DNA of 64,000 nucleotides from positions 248,001 to 312,000 of the forward strand of contig NZ_JAQSLN010000002.1 in assembly GCF_028649655.1 (NCBI RefSeq), in the 5' to 3' direction. The stretch comes from Halobacteriovorax sp. GB3 (GTDB lineage: Bacteria; Bdellovibrionota; Bacteriovoracia; Bacteriovoracales; Bacteriovoracaceae). The notes beneath the pieces were generated by a model. The model ran no database searches and had not been told where the DNA came from. It saw nothing but the letters and a program-made list of their open reading frames with translations. Shown here piece after piece: positions 49,842 through 56,505 of this stretch. The position numbers were made by a program, and so were the translations under genes. The number at the start of each line of letters is the position of its first letter. Within the stretch, counting starts at the first letter, position 1.

Positions 49842-51404
49842 ATGGACTATTCAAGCATGAATGATTTTGATTTTCTTCATAATAATCTAGGTGAAAATTC
49901 TAACGATTTTCAAAATTTTGATGACGTTAAAATTCCCGATGTCGTACTTGTTGAAGATGATCAAACTCTAGGTAAAACAATTAAAAAATATCTTGAGAAA
50001 ACGTTGAATTTAACGATTCACTATGTTCAAGGTCCATCTCAATGTCTAGAGCTAATTTCAACATTTGAGCCTGATAAGAGCTTTTGTTTAATTTCTGATA
50101 TTAGTTTTGATGAAGGGGGGGCTGACGGCCTTCTTCTTATTGACCTCTTAAAAGAAAGGTCTCTAAACTTTGTTTCAATTGTTATGACAGGTTTTGCATC
50201 GATTGAAACGGCCATTACAGCGACTAAAAAGGGTGTTTATCACTATTTAACTAAGCCATTTGAACTTCATATCCTGCAAGATCTCATTGTTAAAGCAATG
50301 GATGAAAGATTTGGTGTTGAAAAAAATCTTCTCTTCAAAAAGAAGACCGCCCCGTCTTCTTCGAAAATACAAACGAGTACACTTTCTGAAAGATTTAAAA
50401 TTGAAGCACCTACAAAAGAAGATATTTTTTGTGGAATGATTGGCCGTTCTCGCGTTATGAGAGAGGTTTTTGAGCGCATTCAAAAGGTTGCTGCTTCGGA
50501 TTCAACAGTTCTTATTAATGGACCATCTGGTACAGGGAAAGAGCTTGTCGCTAATGCTATCCATACTCTTTCTCTTAGAAAAAATAATGGAAACGTTTCT
50601 GTTAACTGTGGAGCGATTCCTGGAGAACTCTTAGAAAGTGAGCTATTTGGTCACGAGAAAGGTTCTTTTACAGGAGCTATAAGCGCTAGAAAAGGACGTT
50701 TTGAGATAGCTGATAAAGGAACTATCTTTCTTGATGAGATTGGTGATATGCCTCTTCTTCTTCAAGTAAAGCTCCTTCGCGTTCTTCAAAATAGAACGAT
50801 TGAAAGAGTAGGAAGTACAACTTCAACGGCCATTGATGTTCGAATTATTACTGCCACTCACCGCAACTTAGAACAAGCTGTCATGGATGGTAATTTTAGA
50901 GAAGATCTCTATTATCGTTTAAATGTTATTCCTATTAAAATTCCTGCTCTGTCTGAGAGAAGAGAAGATATACCACTACTTATTTCTTATTTCCTTTCAC
51001 GTTTCGTTAGTGCTGATGGTAGAAACTCTATCGAGTTTGATGATGAAGCTTTAGAGCTCCTACTTACTTATGATTGGCCAGGTAACGTTAGAGAGTTAGA
51101 AAACCTTATGGAAAGACTTGTTATTTTGAAAGGTGGAAGCCTTGTTAGAGCAAGTGATTTACCAAAGAAGTTTTTGGCCCATTCTTCTAAGACTTTTGCT
51201 TACTATGAAACAGAGAATTTTATTTCACTTCCTGAGCAGGGGATTGATCTTAAAAAGATGCTTTCTGAGATTGAGGACTCTCTCATTACACAGGCCTTAG
51301 AAAAAACCAGCGGAAATAAGAATCGCGCTTCCAAACTTCTTAGTATGAATCGTACGACTTTGATTGAGAAAATGAAGAAGAAGGGCATTCAACTGGAAAT
51401 TTAG
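49842..51404 (+). CDS. NtrC-family sigma54-dependent response regulator
   Basis: The 520-residue protein has three parts. A receiver domain (about 33-155) has acidic pair E38-D39-D40, phosphorylation site D86, T116 and K138. A sigma54-activating AAA+ domain (about 197-430) has Walker A GPSGTGKE (227-234), GSFTGA (274-279) as the sigma54-contact loop, and Walker B IFLDEIGDMP. A C-terminal Fis-type HTH covers about 475-520. No partner kinase is in the window. Position upstream of the flagellar operon suggests, but does not show, control of flagellar genes (FlrC/FlgR-like). An alternative ATG is at 49857. Confidence 0.93.
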   Translation: MDYSSMNDFDFLHNNLGENSNDFQNFDDVKIPDVVLVEDDQTLGKTIKKYLEKTLNLTIHYVQGPSQCLELISTFEPDKSFCLISDISFDEGGADGLLLIDLLKERSLNFVSIVMTGFASIETAITATKKGVYHYLTKPFELHILQDLIVKAMDERFGVEKNLLFKKKTAPSSSKIQTSTLSERFKIEAPTKEDIFCGMIGRSRVMREVFERIQKVAASDSTVLINGPSGTGKELVANAIHTLSLRKNNGNVSVNCGAIPGELLESELFGHEKGSFTGAISARKGRFEIADKGTIFLDEIGDMPLLLQVKLLRVLQNRTIERVGSTTSTAIDVRIITATHRNLEQAVMDGNFREDLYYRLNVIPIKIPALSERREDIPLLISYFLSRFVSADGRNSIEFDDEALELLLTYDWPGNVRELENLMERLVILKGGSLVRASDLPKKFLAHSSKTFAYYETENFISLPEQGIDLKKMLSEIEDSLITQALEKTSGNKNRASKLLSMNRTTLIEKMKKKGIQLEI

Positions 51405-51440
51405 TCAAATAACCAACTTAATCAGTTTTTAAATTACTTG

Positions 51441-51470
51441 GCCGTTACTAATGTAACGGCTTGTTTTTTT
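51441..51470 (+). terminator. Terminator after the response regulator gene
   Basis: GCCGTTAC (51441-51448) and GTAACGGC (51453-51460) form a perfect eight-pair stem with a TAAT loop, followed by TTGTTTTTTTT. It separates the regulator from the downstream motility-associated genes. Confidence 0.9.
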
Positions 51471-51648
51471 TCGCATTCTTGTCAATGTCATTTTTTTGAG
51501 CAGAAAAAAAATCCCACGAGCAAAATTTTCCTTTTAAATTTTTTAAAACACGGTAGAATTATCTCAGGTGCTAAAAAGATCTTCAGGAAGAAGAACTTTT
51601 AGTTACCGCCTAGTTATTACTTTATAGAAACAGGAAGTTTCAGAAAGT

Positions 51649-54291
51649 ATGAGAAAACATGCATTCAAATTATTGACATTCTTATGCCTGCTGGGTGCCT
51701 CTGGGGAAATTCTTTCCAAGGGATACTTTGATCAGATTCAAAACGATGATTTCCTTCGTTTATCTTTGCACGCACAAACTTCTGAACAACTTATTATTAG
51801 TCGCAAGGGAAGTGAAATTGAGATCAAGACTCTCGATCTCGAATTACTAGATAACATCGTTAATGACTTAAAGAGTGAGAAATTAAACGCTAAGTACTTT
51901 TCTGGCTATCAACTTCTTGAACCCAATGCAAAGAACAATGTTCCTTCTTTAAAGATCACTTTAGCTAGTCCAAGTGTTGAACTCTTTTCTTTCTATAAAG
52001 AAAGAGAGAAGAAAAAGGTTCTCGACTTTTGGATTGATTCAGATTCTCTTGGTACAAAGACTGCTGCAACAAAGCCAGCGGCTAAGGTTACTTTTACTAA
52101 ACCAATTAAGGGAAAGAAGCTAACAAAGAAGGCTGCTGCTAAAAAGATAGAGAAACCTATAGTTGTAAAAAAGAATAAAGACTATAGAGACTTTAGATAT
52201 GGAGCTTCTTTTATTTGGGACTATGAGGCGCTTTCTCCGAGAGTTAGTAAACCTTTAAATATTGAGAGAAAGACTCCGGAGTACTTTTATCCTGTAGCGA
52301 ATAGAGAATTCAATAAAAGTGAAAAAGAAGCTCACTTACAACTTGCTGTAAATCTCTTTAGAAAGAAGAAGTGGGGGCTTATGTATAAGTCTCTTCGTCT
52401 ATTTGTTCAAAAGTATGGAGAAGATACAGAGATTGATTTAATCGAATATCTCAAAGCTAATGCTATCTTGAGAGAGAATCTTGAAAAAGGTGAAACTGAG
52501 CCCGTAAAGATGGCCATTTCAATGTTTCAAAATATTTTTAAAAGAAGTGAAGTTTACGATATGAGAAAAGGTGTTGGGAAATACCTTTTAACTTATTATT
52601 TGAACAATAATGAAACAGTTCAAGCTCTTGATCTTGCAAAGAAGATGTACGTAGATTCAAAAGAAAATTTTGACTACGAAGAATCAGATAAAGCAGCAGA
52701 ATATATCCTTTATACTCTTGCGAAGCTAAATCAAGTTGATAAGGTTAGACAACTAGTTAAAGAAAAGACAATTATTAAGCTGCTTCCTAAGCAAGTTCTT
52801 ATTGCTTATGAGATGTTCTCACTTTTAAAACTTGGAAAGACTGAAGATGTTCTTTCATATTATAACGAAGTAAAAAATAGTCTCACAAAGCCGGTTCACG
52901 AGGCTATTCTATTTAATGTTGCTGAAGCATATTTTAGAGAAGCAAATTACGAAAAAGCAGTTGCTGTTTACGATAGCTTCTTGGCACAGCATTCATACCA
53001 CATCAAATCATCTGAAGCCCGACTTAGAATTGCTCTAGCCTATGATCTTTTAGATAGAGAACCTAAAAAGGTTGAAGAACTTTATAAAAATGCAATCAAT
53101 AGATCTCAAAACCCATTTGTTAGCTATGAAGCTAGAATTAGATATGTTGCTCATAGAAGTATTAGAAAAAATGCAATCAATGATGCTGATAGAGAAGTTC
53201 GTGTCTTTCTAGATAACGATAATTTAAAAAACATTTCATATGATCTTAAAAAGCTTCTATGGCTAACTCGTTTAAGAACATTTATTAAAGATGCTCAATA
53301 TACAGAGGCCTTGAGCTTCTTAACTGCTCTTCCATTAAAAACAATGAAAGAAGAAGTGAGAAGAGTTTATGAAGGTGATGGTGCAGAGATTGTTTACGGA
53401 ATTATGATGGATAATTTCGAAAAAACAGAATACTCAAAAGTATATAGAGCTTGGGAAATTTATAAAGACTCTTATATTAGTCGAGTTGCCACTGATCCAT
53501 ACCTCAATTACATTGTTGCTAAATCACTACTAAAGCTTAATTTCAATGATCTCTTTGAGAAGTTTGTTAGTCGTCTAGAAGGATTAAAAGAAAACAAATT
53601 TAAAAGTTTTCCAGTATGGGTTTCGAGAGCGACTGATTCAGACTTCGATACTGTTATAAGTGAGTTAAGGTTGCTAAAGCAATTTCAAATGCAGGATTGG
53701 GATGGTGCTTGGAGAAGTATTGCTTCGATTAAGTTTTCTAACACAAAGAAAAAACACTATTACCAAGCTCTGATTCACTATCATCGTAAGAACTTTGATA
53801 AAGCAGAAGAAGAGTTTGAAAAGTACTTAACTGAAGCTGGAAAGATGGAAACTGTCGATTCAGTTGAAGTTGCAAAACTATTAAAAGCCTATACTGATTC
53901 AATCTATGAGCAGGGGAAGGCCGATAAGTTTGTGAAGGTTACAAGAGCGCTTTTAAGCGATACAGAGAGCCTCAAAGAGAAGAATAAGTATGTTCAAGGA
54001 GTTAGAGAACGTATGAATTATCTTCTTCTCGAAATGGTCGGTGTCGAAATGAAACCGGATTTTGTAACTTTTTCAAAAGATGTTACAGCGTTTAAAAAAG
54101 ACTACCCACAATCCCAATATCTTGGGAGAATTAACTACCTTTTCGGGATCAACCTCGTTAAGGCCGGAAATTCGAAGGAGGGTAGAGAAGTATTTGAAGG
54201 GATTTTGAAGGATACAAAATCTAGCGAATACTTAAAAGAAATGGCGAGAACGGAATTATCATTACTCGCTATTAAAGATAGAAAAATATAA
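51649..54291 (+). CDS. Large secreted TPR-like repeat protein upstream of the flagellar operon
   Basis: The 880-residue protein has an N-terminal hydrophobic signal (HAFKLLTFLCLLGASGEIL) and an N-terminal beta domain (to about 125). A Lys/Ala/Pro linker follows, then long helical repeats of TPR type (e.g. FNVAEAYFREANYEKAVAVY and YYQALIHYHRKNFDKAEEEF). It is probably periplasmic or outer-membrane associated. Only 40 bases separate it from the regulator gene and the flagellar genes on the same strand, so a structural or assembly role in motility is plausible. I do not recognise the family beyond the repeats. Confidence 0.85.
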   Translation: MRKHAFKLLTFLCLLGASGEILSKGYFDQIQNDDFLRLSLHAQTSEQLIISRKGSEIEIKTLDLELLDNIVNDLKSEKLNAKYFSGYQLLEPNAKNNVPSLKITLASPSVELFSFYKEREKKKVLDFWIDSDSLGTKTAATKPAAKVTFTKPIKGKKLTKKAAAKKIEKPIVVKKNKDYRDFRYGASFIWDYEALSPRVSKPLNIERKTPEYFYPVANREFNKSEKEAHLQLAVNLFRKKKWGLMYKSLRLFVQKYGEDTEIDLIEYLKANAILRENLEKGETEPVKMAISMFQNIFKRSEVYDMRKGVGKYLLTYYLNNNETVQALDLAKKMYVDSKENFDYEESDKAAEYILYTLAKLNQVDKVRQLVKEKTIIKLLPKQVLIAYEMFSLLKLGKTEDVLSYYNEVKNSLTKPVHEAILFNVAEAYFREANYEKAVAVYDSFLAQHSYHIKSSEARLRIALAYDLLDREPKKVEELYKNAINRSQNPFVSYEARIRYVAHRSIRKNAINDADREVRVFLDNDNLKNISYDLKKLLWLTRLRTFIKDAQYTEALSFLTALPLKTMKEEVRRVYEGDGAEIVYGIMMDNFEKTEYSKVYRAWEIYKDSYISRVATDPYLNYIVAKSLLKLNFNDLFEKFVSRLEGLKENKFKSFPVWVSRATDSDFDTVISELRLLKQFQMQDWDGAWRSIASIKFSNTKKKHYYQALIHYHRKNFDKAEEEFEKYLTEAGKMETVDSVEVAKLLKAYTDSIYEQGKADKFVKVTRALLSDTESLKEKNKYVQGVRERMNYLLLEMVGVEMKPDFVTFSKDVTAFKKDYPQSQYLGRINYLFGINLVKAGNSKEGREVFEGILKDTKSSEYLKEMARTELSLLAIKDRKI

Positions 54292-54331: not shown

Positions 54332-55261
54332 ATGAATACGGTAAATGTCGAACTATTTGGGAAGGATCCAAAAATTGTTAAGGCACTTTCTATCGCAAGA
54401 AATGTTTCGGTTACGAAAGCACCAGTGCTTATCACAGGTGAAGCTGGACTAGGAAAGAAGACACTAGGTCACTTCATTCATGACAGCTCAACAAGAGCAA
54501 ATCAGCAGCTAATGGTCGTAGATTGTTCAGCTGAAGGAAAAGAAGTAGAAAATAAAATTTTAGGTTACAGAGATGAAGAAACAGGTCGTTTCAATCGTGG
54601 TGCTCTCGAAGTTGCTAACGGTGGAACCGTTATCTTTGCAAACATCGACGGACTTGAAGATGAATTTCAAAAGAGATTTCACAAAATTCTAACTGAATTA
54701 TCTGACTATGATATCGATGTAAGAATTGTTGCTACGACAACTAAAAATCTTTCAAAGCTTGTTGGTGCTGGAAGATTTTATAGAGGTCTATATACATTTA
54801 TTTCACCAAACACAATCAATCTTACTCCTCTTAGAGAAAGAGTTGGTGATCTTGAAATGATCGCAAGACATTACATTACAGAACTTTCTTCTGAAGAAGT
54901 TACTCTTAATGACAATGCTCTTAATAAGATTCTAAATCACTACTGGACACATAATGTTCAAGAGCTAAAAGCTGTAATCGAAAGCTCTGTTGCTAATCTT
55001 CAAGATGGTGTTCTTGGGGAAGAAGCTCTAGAGATCGGTGAGAAGAGAGCAGTTAGCATGATTTCTGAAGAAGATTCAGAAGGAATTAGACTAATGTCTC
55101 TTAAAGAAGCTGAAAGACTACTTATTAAGAAAGCTCTTATTCACACAAGTGAAAATAGAACGCAAGCTGCAAAGATCTTAGGTGTTTCTATTAGAACTCT
55201 TAGAAATAAGATCAATGAGTATAGAAACTCAGGAAATGCATACTTCGTAAACTTAAGATAA
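54332..55261 (+). CDS. Regulator with degenerate sigma54-type AAA+ domain and Fis HTH
   Basis: The 309-residue protein aligns with the AAA+ and DNA-binding parts of NtrC relatives but has no receiver domain. Walker A survives as GEAGLGKKT (36-44). The GAFTGA loop that contacts sigma54 is missing (GYRDEETGRFNRGALEVA spans its place), and Walker B reads VIFANID instead of FLDEI, so the acidic pair is lost. LTPLRERVGDLE and the Fis-type HTH (about 258-297, NRTQAAKILGVSIRTLRNKI) are intact. It probably binds DNA without activating sigma54. AGGAGG precedes ATG 54332, and flgB starts 12 bases after its stop. Confidence 0.88.
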   Translation: MNTVNVELFGKDPKIVKALSIARNVSVTKAPVLITGEAGLGKKTLGHFIHDSSTRANQQLMVVDCSAEGKEVENKILGYRDEETGRFNRGALEVANGGTVIFANIDGLEDEFQKRFHKILTELSDYDIDVRIVATTTKNLSKLVGAGRFYRGLYTFISPNTINLTPLRERVGDLEMIARHYITELSSEEVTLNDNALNKILNHYWTHNVQELKAVIESSVANLQDGVLGEEALEIGEKRAVSMISEEDSEGIRLMSLKEAERLLIKKALIHTSENRTQAAKILGVSIRTLRNKINEYRNSGNAYFVNLR

Positions 55262-55273
55262 TAAGGACGATAC

Positions 55274-55681
55274 ATGATTTCGGACGATAAAACTCTACAA
55301 GCACTGGCGACATCACTAAACTTTAGACAGATGAGACAAGAAATCATCAGTTCGAATATCGCTAATGCCGAGACTCCAGGTTACAAAGCAAAGAGACTTG
55401 AATTTGAAGAAGCTCTTGCTCGTGCCCTAGATGTTGATGGAAATTTATCGATGTTGACCTCCGACGAAAAACATCACGATGTTGGAAGTGGTGGTTTTGA
55501 TAATCTTCAGCCTGAAGTCGTAGAAGATTCAAATGGAATCGTTAGTGAAGACGGAAATACAGTTGATAGAGATGCCGAAATGGCAAAAATGGCCGAAAAT
55601 AAAATCATGTACGATGCATCAGTTCAGCTACTGAATAAAAAGCTGGGACTAATGAAATATGCCGTGAGCTCAGAGAGGTAA
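55274..55681 (+). CDS. flgB: Flagellar basal-body rod protein FlgB
   Basis: FlgB is one of the proximal rod proteins that link the MS ring to the drive shaft. The 135-residue protein has the rod signature near the N-terminus, ISSNIANAETPGYKAKRLEFE (given here in part), and a C-terminal helix (YDASVQLLNKKLGLMKYAV). Size is normal. It is followed by flgC after 3 bases. Confidence 0.95.
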   Translation: MISDDKTLQALATSLNFRQMRQEIISSNIANAETPGYKAKRLEFEEALARALDVDGNLSMLTSDEKHHDVGSGGFDNLQPEVVEDSNGIVSEDGNTVDRDAEMAKMAENKIMYDASVQLLNKKLGLMKYAVSSER

Positions 55682-55684
55682 TAA

Positions 55685-56125
55685 ATGGATCTATTAACAA
55701 GTTTGAAAATTAGCTCATCAGGACTATCAGCAACTAGAAAGAGAATGAACGCTATCTCTTCTAACATTGCTAATGCTCAAACGACGAGAACTGCTGAAGG
55801 TGGACCTTACCGTAAGAAAGAAGTTGTTTACGGAGCGGAACCTGCAAGAGAGAACTTTTCAGAAATACTTGAAGGTGAAATTGATGCTCAAGCTCAGTCT
55901 GTCCACGCGACAGAGGTAATTTCAACTAATAAACCACCTATTCTAAAATATGAGCCACATCACCCAGATGCAAATGCACAAGGTTATGTGGCCTATCCTA
56001 ACATTAATGTTATGGAAGAAATGGCCAATATGATCTCAGCTTCAAGAGCATATGAAGCCAATGTTAATACAATGAATACTACGAAGAATATGGCCATGAA
56101 GGCCCTAGAAATCGGTAGAAACTAA
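55685..56125 (+). CDS. flgC: Flagellar basal-body rod protein FlgC
   Basis: FlgC is another proximal rod subunit. The 146-residue protein has the rod signature SSNIANAQTTRT after MNAI, the PYRKKEVVYG stretch, and the C-terminal PNINVMEEMANMISASRAYE followed by an N-N-T-N-like helix. Normal length. It lies between flgB (3-base gap) and fliE (14-base gap). Confidence 0.96.
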   Translation: MDLLTSLKISSSGLSATRKRMNAISSNIANAQTTRTAEGGPYRKKEVVYGAEPARENFSEILEGEIDAQAQSVHATEVISTNKPPILKYEPHHPDANAQGYVAYPNINVMEEMANMISASRAYEANVNTMNTTKNMAMKALEIGRN

Positions 56126-56139
56126 GGGAGAGATAGTTT

Positions 56140-56505
56140 ATGCCAATCAATAATGTTTCATCAATGAACGAAATTTTAAGTAAACATGGTGCTCACGAGT
56201 GGTCTAAGTCCGCTGAGGTGAATATCAAAAAGCCACTTGATTTTAGTGATGTTAACTTTGATGAACTACAAGTTGGTAAAACGAGCCAAAGCTTTAGCGA
56301 CATGCTAAATGCTTCTATTAAAGATGTTAATAAACTGCAAAAGGATGCGGATGTTGCTGTTCAAAAGCTCGCATCTGGACAGTCTAAAAATCTACACGAG
56401 ACAATGCTGGCGGTAGAGAAGGCTGAAATTGCTTTCAAGACGATGAACCAAATTCGTATGAAAGTAATCGACGCCTATAAAGAAGTAATGAGAATGCAAG
56501 TCTAA
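56140..56505 (+). CDS. fliE: Flagellar MS-ring/rod junction protein FliE
   Basis: FliE joins the MS ring to the rod. The 121-residue protein has the typical C-terminal half: SFSDMLNASIKDVNKLQKDAD, LHETMLAVEKAEIAFKTMNQ and the ending KVIDAYKEVMRMQV. The first 40 residues are variable, as expected. It precedes fliF, with a 51-base gap that holds a strong AGGAGG for fliF. Confidence 0.95.
   Translation: MPINNVSSMNEILSKHGAHEWSKSAEVNIKKPLDFSDVNFDELQVGKTSQSFSDMLNASIKDVNKLQKDADVAVQKLASGQSKNLHETMLAVEKAEIAFKTMNQIRMKVIDAYKEVMRMQV

Follow-up and report, generated by a model that had tools for sequence, protein, structure and literature searches.

A putative FlbD-like regulator uncoupled from sigma54 in the flagellar operon of Halobacteriovorax sp. 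GB3

We find that the gene directly ahead of flgB in Halobacteriovorax sp. GB3 encodes a protein of the bEBP family that has lost the motifs for sigma54 activation and has kept its P-loop and a strongly constrained Fis-type HTH. We name this sigma54-uncoupled bEBP-like protein DEG (ORF 54332-55261 of the 64,000-nucleotide stretch of DNA that we analysed, hereafter the window). With a probability of roughly 0.6, DEG would be an FlbD-like DNA-binding autoregulator of its own flagellar operon, a reading that draws on motif losses, constraint, gene linkage and promoter comparisons across several families of the phylum.

DEG is the second gene of a flagellar operon

DEG matches the Pfam families Sigma54_activat, AAA_lid_14 and HTH_8 (38.6 bits), with Sigma54_activat scoring 78 bits in DEG versus 241 bits in the intact regulator nearby. 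A preliminary description of the window had placed DEG 12 bases before flgB and downstream of a complete NtrC-type regulator, and both points hold: 12 bases part the DEG stop from the flgB ATG, and the regulator at 49842-51404 carries GSFTGA and a DE pair at Walker B. That description also had DEG heading the operon, which needs correction: an 880-residue TPR protein gene starting at 51649 ends 40 nt upstream of DEG, and a terminator-like hairpin parts the TPR gene from the intact regulator, so DEG is the second gene (Table 1). The operon runs TPR gene, DEG, flgB, flgC, fliE, fliF and on, where flgC, fliE and fliF are names that we presume from position and typical products. By eye, the TPR gene (51649-54291) has a signal-peptide-like start.

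In the window's family (f1) and in families f6 (probably the Bdellovibrionaceae, as we take it), f11, f8 and f12, the regulator follows a long first gene. Outside the window's family, a profile of the window-family TPR proteins matched 43 of 44 such long ORFs (E <= 1.6e-11 in this set of 44), matches that TPR repeats by themselves could yield.

Table 1. Features of the DEG operon and its upstream region (window coordinates).
Feature	Coordinates	Strand	Details
Intact NtrC-type response regulator	49842..51404	+	Receiver + AAA+ with GSFTGA and DE Walker B + HTH; possible partner
Terminator-like hairpin and T run, after intact regulator	51440..51470	+	Hairpin itself 51440-51461
TGTCA half-sites upstream of operon promoter	51480..51499	+	GTCA in 27/32 family regions vs 11.2 in shuffles
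Palindromic block GAGCAAAATTTTCCTTT, centred near -40.5	51518..51534	+	Conserved in family
Sigma70-like -10 TAGAAT	51554..51559	+	19 nt past block; sigma54 -24/-12 element sought without result
GGA-loop hairpin farther upstream, the second CsrA-like site	51580..51594	+	In operon leader
Hairpin GAAACAGGAAGTTTC with GGA in loop, by SD; CsrA-like site	51627..51641	+	30/32 regions
TPR protein gene, operon gene 1	51649..54291	+	880 aa; tblastn match upstream of DEG in 35/35 family loci
DEG	54332..55261	+	309 aa, good SD; Pfam, alignment, predicted model
DEG domains			Degenerate AAA+ about 1-167; AAA lid 168-about 250; Fis-type HTH about 254-300; C-terminal tail FxNLR
Walker A GEAGLGK, residues 36-42	54437..54457	+	K42 81/81, G36 80/81
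GAFTGA place, now RDEETGRF, residues 80-87	54569..54592	+	0/81 GAFTGA-like
Walker B D-E place, now A-N, residues 103-104	54638..54643	+	A 64/81, N 79/81, no D at 103
flgB, flgC, fliE	55274..56505	+	flgB by Pfam

DEG lacks the motifs for sigma54 activation and is conserved in its family

We aligned DEG with the best 80 of 236 relatives from named contigs (81 sequences in all), and separately aligned 35 window-family members with intact bEBPs. Walker A is kept as GEAGLGK and so is the Fis-type HTH, both as first described; the HTH motif is present in all 35 window-family proteins. The two losses reported there also stand: a GAFTGA-like motif occurs in 0 of 81 aligned sequences and 0 of the 35, and the Walker B pair is replaced by A-N, with Asp at the first place in none of the 81. 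At the shortened GAFTGA loop, which in the window protein reads EETGRF, a G survives in 79/81 and T or S in 68/81; the central F is absent, its place being taken by E in 53/81. The description had further read an Arg-containing sensor region as kept, which the alignment contradicts: sensor II retains its R in only one of 81 sequences and lacks it in the window protein, where NVREL has become NVQEL. Both arginine-finger places are without R in all 81 (FREDLYYR has become FYRGLYTF; the finger motif is found in 0/35 of the window-family set), and an invariant R lies one residue off the first of them. The sensor I place holds T or S in 80/81, and the loop ahead of it is eight residues shorter than in intact forms. 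Whether the loss is conserved, a point raised in the same description, can be answered for the window's family, where it holds in every member aligned. These losses are not due to chance. They support the reading of DEG as a DNA-binding regulator that would be unable to activate sigma54 by itself.

A C-terminal tail, F-x-N-L-R, is near-invariant (F305 81/81; N, L and R 80/81 each). This tail (window 55244-55258) was not seen in the aligned intact relatives.

We also looked for an intact GAFTGA or Walker B elsewhere in DEG, the finding that the preliminary description had named as contrary to its reading, and found none, either by regex on the 81 sequences or by structure comparison. The predicted model of DEG (pLDDT 85.1, pTM 0.71) superposes on NtrC4, PspF, FlrC, FleQ and VpsR (Z about 25-27) with a short hairpin at the GAFTGA place, which argues against a displaced motif. 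Two candidates for Walker B were rejected: four MIADD/FIVDD-like matches fall outside the ATPase core, at about residues 242-247, and IFDEL of L020, the sole match in the 35-member set, lies near residue 128, off the Walker B place. DEG thus has the AAA+ fold with Walker A and the Fis-type HTH of a sigma54-dependent bEBP and lacks GAFTGA, the Walker B D-E pair, the arginine fingers and the sensor II arginine; nor was a sigma54 promoter found at its operon, a feature that a bEBP does not strictly need.

Compared with a same-genus relative, DEG has a dN/dS of 0.112/1.077, and the HTH alone, its most constrained part, 0.016/1.262. Its dN of 0.112 is below those of the intact regulator (0.205) and the TPR protein (0.262) and above those of FlgB (0.066) and FlgC (0.075). 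Selection has kept the DNA-binding part and, in the window's family, the P-loop.

Of the 37 family genomes searched, 35 have a close DEG orthologue (E <= 5.4e-90), and G030 (67% complete) and G031 (86%) gave no match. Thirty-three of the 37 have flgB (E < 1e-50), and all 33 have DEG with flgB behind it; a sigma54 gene is present in 34/37. Neither flgB (E < 1e-50) nor FlhA gave a match in G028 (91% complete) or G032 (99%), and both genomes keep the regulator with HTH and tail, with a FliF-like gene directly behind. The FliF-like genes lie at L049:5096-6691 (+) and L048:2642-4135 (-), with YscJ_FliF matches of 59 bits in L049 and 23.5 bits, just under cut-off, in L048. G032 keeps TTTTTCCTTT-19-TAAAAT and the GGA hairpin before its TPR gene; the promoter block of G028 is weak, with the lowest score of the scored regions. 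The TPR-regulator cassette seems to outlive the flagellum, and the FliF-like product may be a ring protein that serves something other than a flagellum.

The operon has a predicted sigma70-like promoter with conserved upstream elements

No sigma54 promoter was found upstream of the operon in any of 32 window-family regions (best score 6; L093 alone lies outside the 32-region counts). The window family carries the pattern GAGnAAAATTTTCCTTT, 19 nt, TAnnAT, which scores at least 15 of 20 in 30 of 31 regions (31 of the 33 loci, L093 and L098 lying outside the block footprint counts) versus 2.5% of shuffles; here and below, shuffles were generated by first-order Markov resampling, and the sequences scored are those from which the motifs had been taken. 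The exact core pattern has 20 matches in 19 of 59 family genomes, and its reversal gives 3. Block and -10 match just once in the window's genome, at this promoter; G003 has a second match elsewhere. The G and C positions flanking the A/T run of the block are about as conserved as the run itself, and the -35 hexamer beneath the block is poor in the window's family. The proposed promoter is missing from the list produced by a generic sigma70 scan.

In the leader, the SD-proximal GGA hairpin, of the type A[CT]A(A)GGA[AT]GT, recurs in 30 of 32 family regions. The two GGA-loop hairpins look like CsrA sites. CsrA itself has a match in 34/37 family genomes, that of G017 being a fragment below cut-off. 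Two further candidates were rejected: a leader RNA family, for which a single weak Rfam lncRNA match fell below cut-off, and a FliA-type promoter, since by eye the block is unlike the TTAAG-N16-CCGATA consensus given in PMC3627812.

The genome itself holds 33 exact TGGCAYN5TTGCW sites versus 0 in the reversed control, so sigma54 probably has a regulon here. The part of C2 in which this operon lies, 275116-327980, contains none of the 33.

Upstream of the corresponding operons of other families, TGGCAY-N5-xTGC was found in 19 of 20 f6 regions, scored 8 or more of 11, a score that 8.1% of shuffles reach; the region without a site is that of L224, where the gene start may be misplaced. A sigma54 promoter was present at 11/11 loci examined in f11 and f8, which encode intact proteins. 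At the 11 loci of the degenerate family f12 there was none; one weak GG-N10-GC match was seen, and sigma70-like elements are found instead. In the intact families f3 (two loci) and f9 (two of three) no sigma54 site was detected within the upstream scan, in which the upstream genes differ and the L053 sequence reaches only about 1.2 kb upstream. A simple rule, that an intact protein goes with a sigma54 promoter and a lost one with sigma70, therefore fails, since f6 is uncoupled with a site and f3 and f9 are intact without one; protein and promoter states do not correspond one to one.

Two upstream elements are common to f1 and f6: GTCA (27/32 and 19/19 regions, respectively) and a T-run-CC block (26/32 and 16/19), both above all shuffles. 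It looks as if the core promoter changed beneath these older elements. A TGKC-GMCA dyad occurs in 10/19 regions of f6, 5/11 of f11 and f8, and 5/32 of the window's family (shuffled mean 0.6), and TTGKC is at chance in the window's family (6/32 versus 7.8 shuffled). Because the dyad is weak and TTGKC at chance in the window's family, we do not claim a shared operator. Separately, in several of the f12 loci L301-L311 the region ahead of the first gene shows, by eye, a CACAAT box with a GGCAGATTCTGCC-like repeat close upstream, a candidate operator.

Relatives of DEG ahead of flgB in other families

A bEBP gene ahead of flgB is found also in other families of the phylum. The flgB-linked protein is intact in f11 (L050 and nine of nine more), f8 (L052), f3 (three loci) and f9 (three loci, where it carries a receiver domain); within f11, L318 reads GAFTNA. 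L312 too is intact. The f11 count covers 10 of 13 close orthologues, the other three having in-frame stops in the match. Degenerate proteins were found in f6, with a GAFTGA-like motif at 0 of 30 loci and the HTH at 30/30 (the best 30 of 41 genomes that a degenerate query had picked out; upstream regions were examined for 20 of these 41), and in f12, with 0/11 and 11/11 (11 of 13 genomes examined). Two of the 30 f6 relatives, L193 (137 aa) and L204 (141 aa), both flgB-linked, have lost the P-loop domain and retain only lid and HTH, which indicates that the AAA+ ring is dispensable in f6. On the evidence of such sequences, decay is still going on in that family. The arginine-finger motif survives in 10/11 proteins of f12, 11/30 of f6 and 0/35 of the window's family; decay patterns differ between families.

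NCBIfam FlbD is the best match for L050, L052, L054 and L056. Of the four intact flgB-linked relatives tested, three have it as their best match, as does one degenerate f12 protein. L103 from f6 matches no other NCBIfam model, and in L100, from f9, AtoC and NtrC outscore FlbD. In a tree that took in no FlbD sequence, flgB-linked rows stand apart from other bEBPs (98/96) with one exception, L058, which is not beside flgB yet falls inside the flgB-linked group. The AU test rejected a single clade uniting all degenerate rows (p 0.0147), a grouping chosen after the first tree had been seen; a single clade of all flgB-linked rows was not rejected (p 0.155). Sigma54 coupling would thus have been lost at least twice, two being the fewest changes on the tree when the "other" bEBP rows are taken as intact (all have a GAFTGA-like motif bar C_L005, which was excluded from the count). 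As part of the whole best explanation, it is probable that DEG descends from a single-domain, FlbD-like flagellar sigma54 activator encoded just before flgB.

The window's genome encodes a second degenerate bEBP, on C3 (L218:7230-8780 (-)), of 516 aa, with GIVGGA at the GAFTGA place and N-N at Walker B. We read its N-terminal part as GAF-like, and Tol-like genes lie a few kb away.

Discussion

Several known regulators resemble DEG in part. FlrC, FleQ and FlgR share its AAA+ fold (Z about 25-26 for FlrC and FleQ) and its flagellar setting; unlike DEG, they retain GAFTGA together with the catalytic residues and have N-terminal domains. PspF (Z 26.8 to the DEG model) is a single-domain AAA+ plus HTH protein and an active sigma54 activator, whereas DEG lacks the motifs for such activation. 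FlbD of Caulobacter (NCBIfam NF050807) is likewise a flagellar bEBP and the best model for most intact flgB-linked relatives tested; unlike FlbD, DEG has no receiver domain (its AAA+ part begins near residue 9, and no receiver match was found), no GAFTGA and no Walker B pair. DEG scores 150 bits against the FlbD model and 158 bits against its top NCBIfam match, DhaR (NF008485), below the curated cut-offs of 750 and 551, respectively. FlbD both activates and represses flagellar genes (PMC3930126, PMC3096577) and represses the early gene fliF through ftr4 (PMC3930126). TyrR, DhaR and HupR, from which GAFTGA has been lost, depend on sigma70, and in DhaR, TyrR, HupR and VpsR, as in DEG, GAFTGA is deleted or changed in a recognisable bEBP (PMC3162934); VpsR is also a good structural match to the DEG model (Z 24.8). 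DEG differs from these four in lying in a flagellar operon and in having no sensory N-terminal domain, and its use of sigma70 is a prediction. It also lacks the arginine fingers and the sensor II arginine, the comparison with DhaR and TyrR covering GAFTGA alone.

We propose that an ancestral single-domain, FlbD-like sigma54 activator beside flgB would have lost, in this lineage, the sigma54-contact loop and the catalytic and trans-acting residues while keeping the P-loop and, nearly unchanged, the Fis-type HTH. DEG would then sit as a dimer or oligomer, perhaps ATP-bound without hydrolysis, on the conserved sites upstream of 51649 and adjust RNA polymerase at the sigma70-like promoter of the TPR-flgB-fliF operon. 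A classical activator is implausible here because we found no sigma54-contact loop, Walker B pair, arginine fingers or sigma54 promoter; we propose a local autoregulator acting at 51480-51560 because GAFTGA-less relatives are sigma70-dependent and FlbD also represses early fliF. As for the sign of its action, we lean slightly and tentatively to class II-type activation in the window's family, since the block overlaps the -35 and the -35 hexamer is poor. The FlbD precedent leans the other way, and the chances of repression are only slightly poorer. The tie of block GAGCAAAATTTTCCTTT to DEG is putative, and the block might instead be an UP element or be bound by another factor.

An alternative is that DEG is a plain repressor or negative feedback regulator at the operon promoter, and so would keep the one of FlbD's two roles for which no contact with sigma54 is needed. 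It is suggested by the repression of fliF by FlbD (PMC3930126, PMC3096577) and by the repeats close to the CACAAT box at several f12 promoters, noted by eye. The poor -35 in the window's family suits activation, however, and we regard this reading as doubtful.

Unlikely, in our estimate, is that the block is an UP element or the site of another factor and that DEG acts elsewhere or by protein contacts, for instance through its tail. The sequence AAAATTTT around -44 to -37 would fit an UP element, and the near-invariant tail is otherwise unexplained; against this stand the conserved G/C flanks and the HTH as the most constrained part of DEG.

The preliminary description had suggested that DEG oligomerises with its intact neighbour. 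In such a model, resembling FleQ/FleT, DEG would join hetero-oligomers with the NtrC-type regulator at 49842 and damp its ATPase as a dominant-negative or modulating partner. DEG retains the AAA+ fold, an intact regulator is next door (with a match of at least 500 bits in 16 of 33 upstream stretches, some contigs ending early), and the sigma54 promoters of f6 operons call for another bEBP. But linkage to the intact regulator is patchy, at 16/33, versus complete linkage to flgB (33/33) where flgB exists; two of 30 f6 relatives have no AAA+ core, and a sigma54 promoter was found before none of 32 window-family operons. We therefore consider hetero-oligomerisation distinctly unlikely and the suggestion of the preliminary description not supported. 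That DEG is a decaying, functionless gene, as the loss of most catalytic motifs might suggest, has next to no probability: with a dN/dS of about 0.1 and a conserved HTH and tail it is a maintained protein and no relic, and two relatives in which neither flgB nor FlhA was detected still have it.

Our preferred reading of DEG as a sigma54-uncoupled autoregulator extends to an evolutionary one, which we hold to be somewhat less likely than not. The regulator would have been uncoupled at least twice at its own operon, after which two families would have exchanged a sigma54 core promoter for a sigma70 one, one of them under retained upstream elements. Living families would represent successive stages: intact protein with sigma54 promoter, uncoupled protein with sigma54 promoter, uncoupled protein with sigma70-like promoter, and loss of the P-loop. 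We rate this slightly lower because the intact f3 and f9 loci have no detected sigma54 site. In the two members without detected flgB or FlhA, where the cassette stands before a FliF-like gene, the regulator may now serve a non-flagellar role.

bEBPs without GAFTGA are already known; new, as far as literature listings show, are the recurrent uncoupling of a flagellar one and the promoter change in two of three uncoupled families. We found no description of an uncoupled bEBP in a flagellar operon in the literature searched, subscription papers lying mostly outside its scope. To call such genes sigma54-dependent regulators from a Pfam match alone would mislead. Our reading, if true, puts a name to a regulator encoded within the flagellar operon of predatory bacteria, in whose relative Bdellovibrio the flagella belong to the attack-phase programme (PMC3627812). 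It would also show a sigma54 activator turned into an ordinary local regulator, with the intermediates surviving in living relatives.
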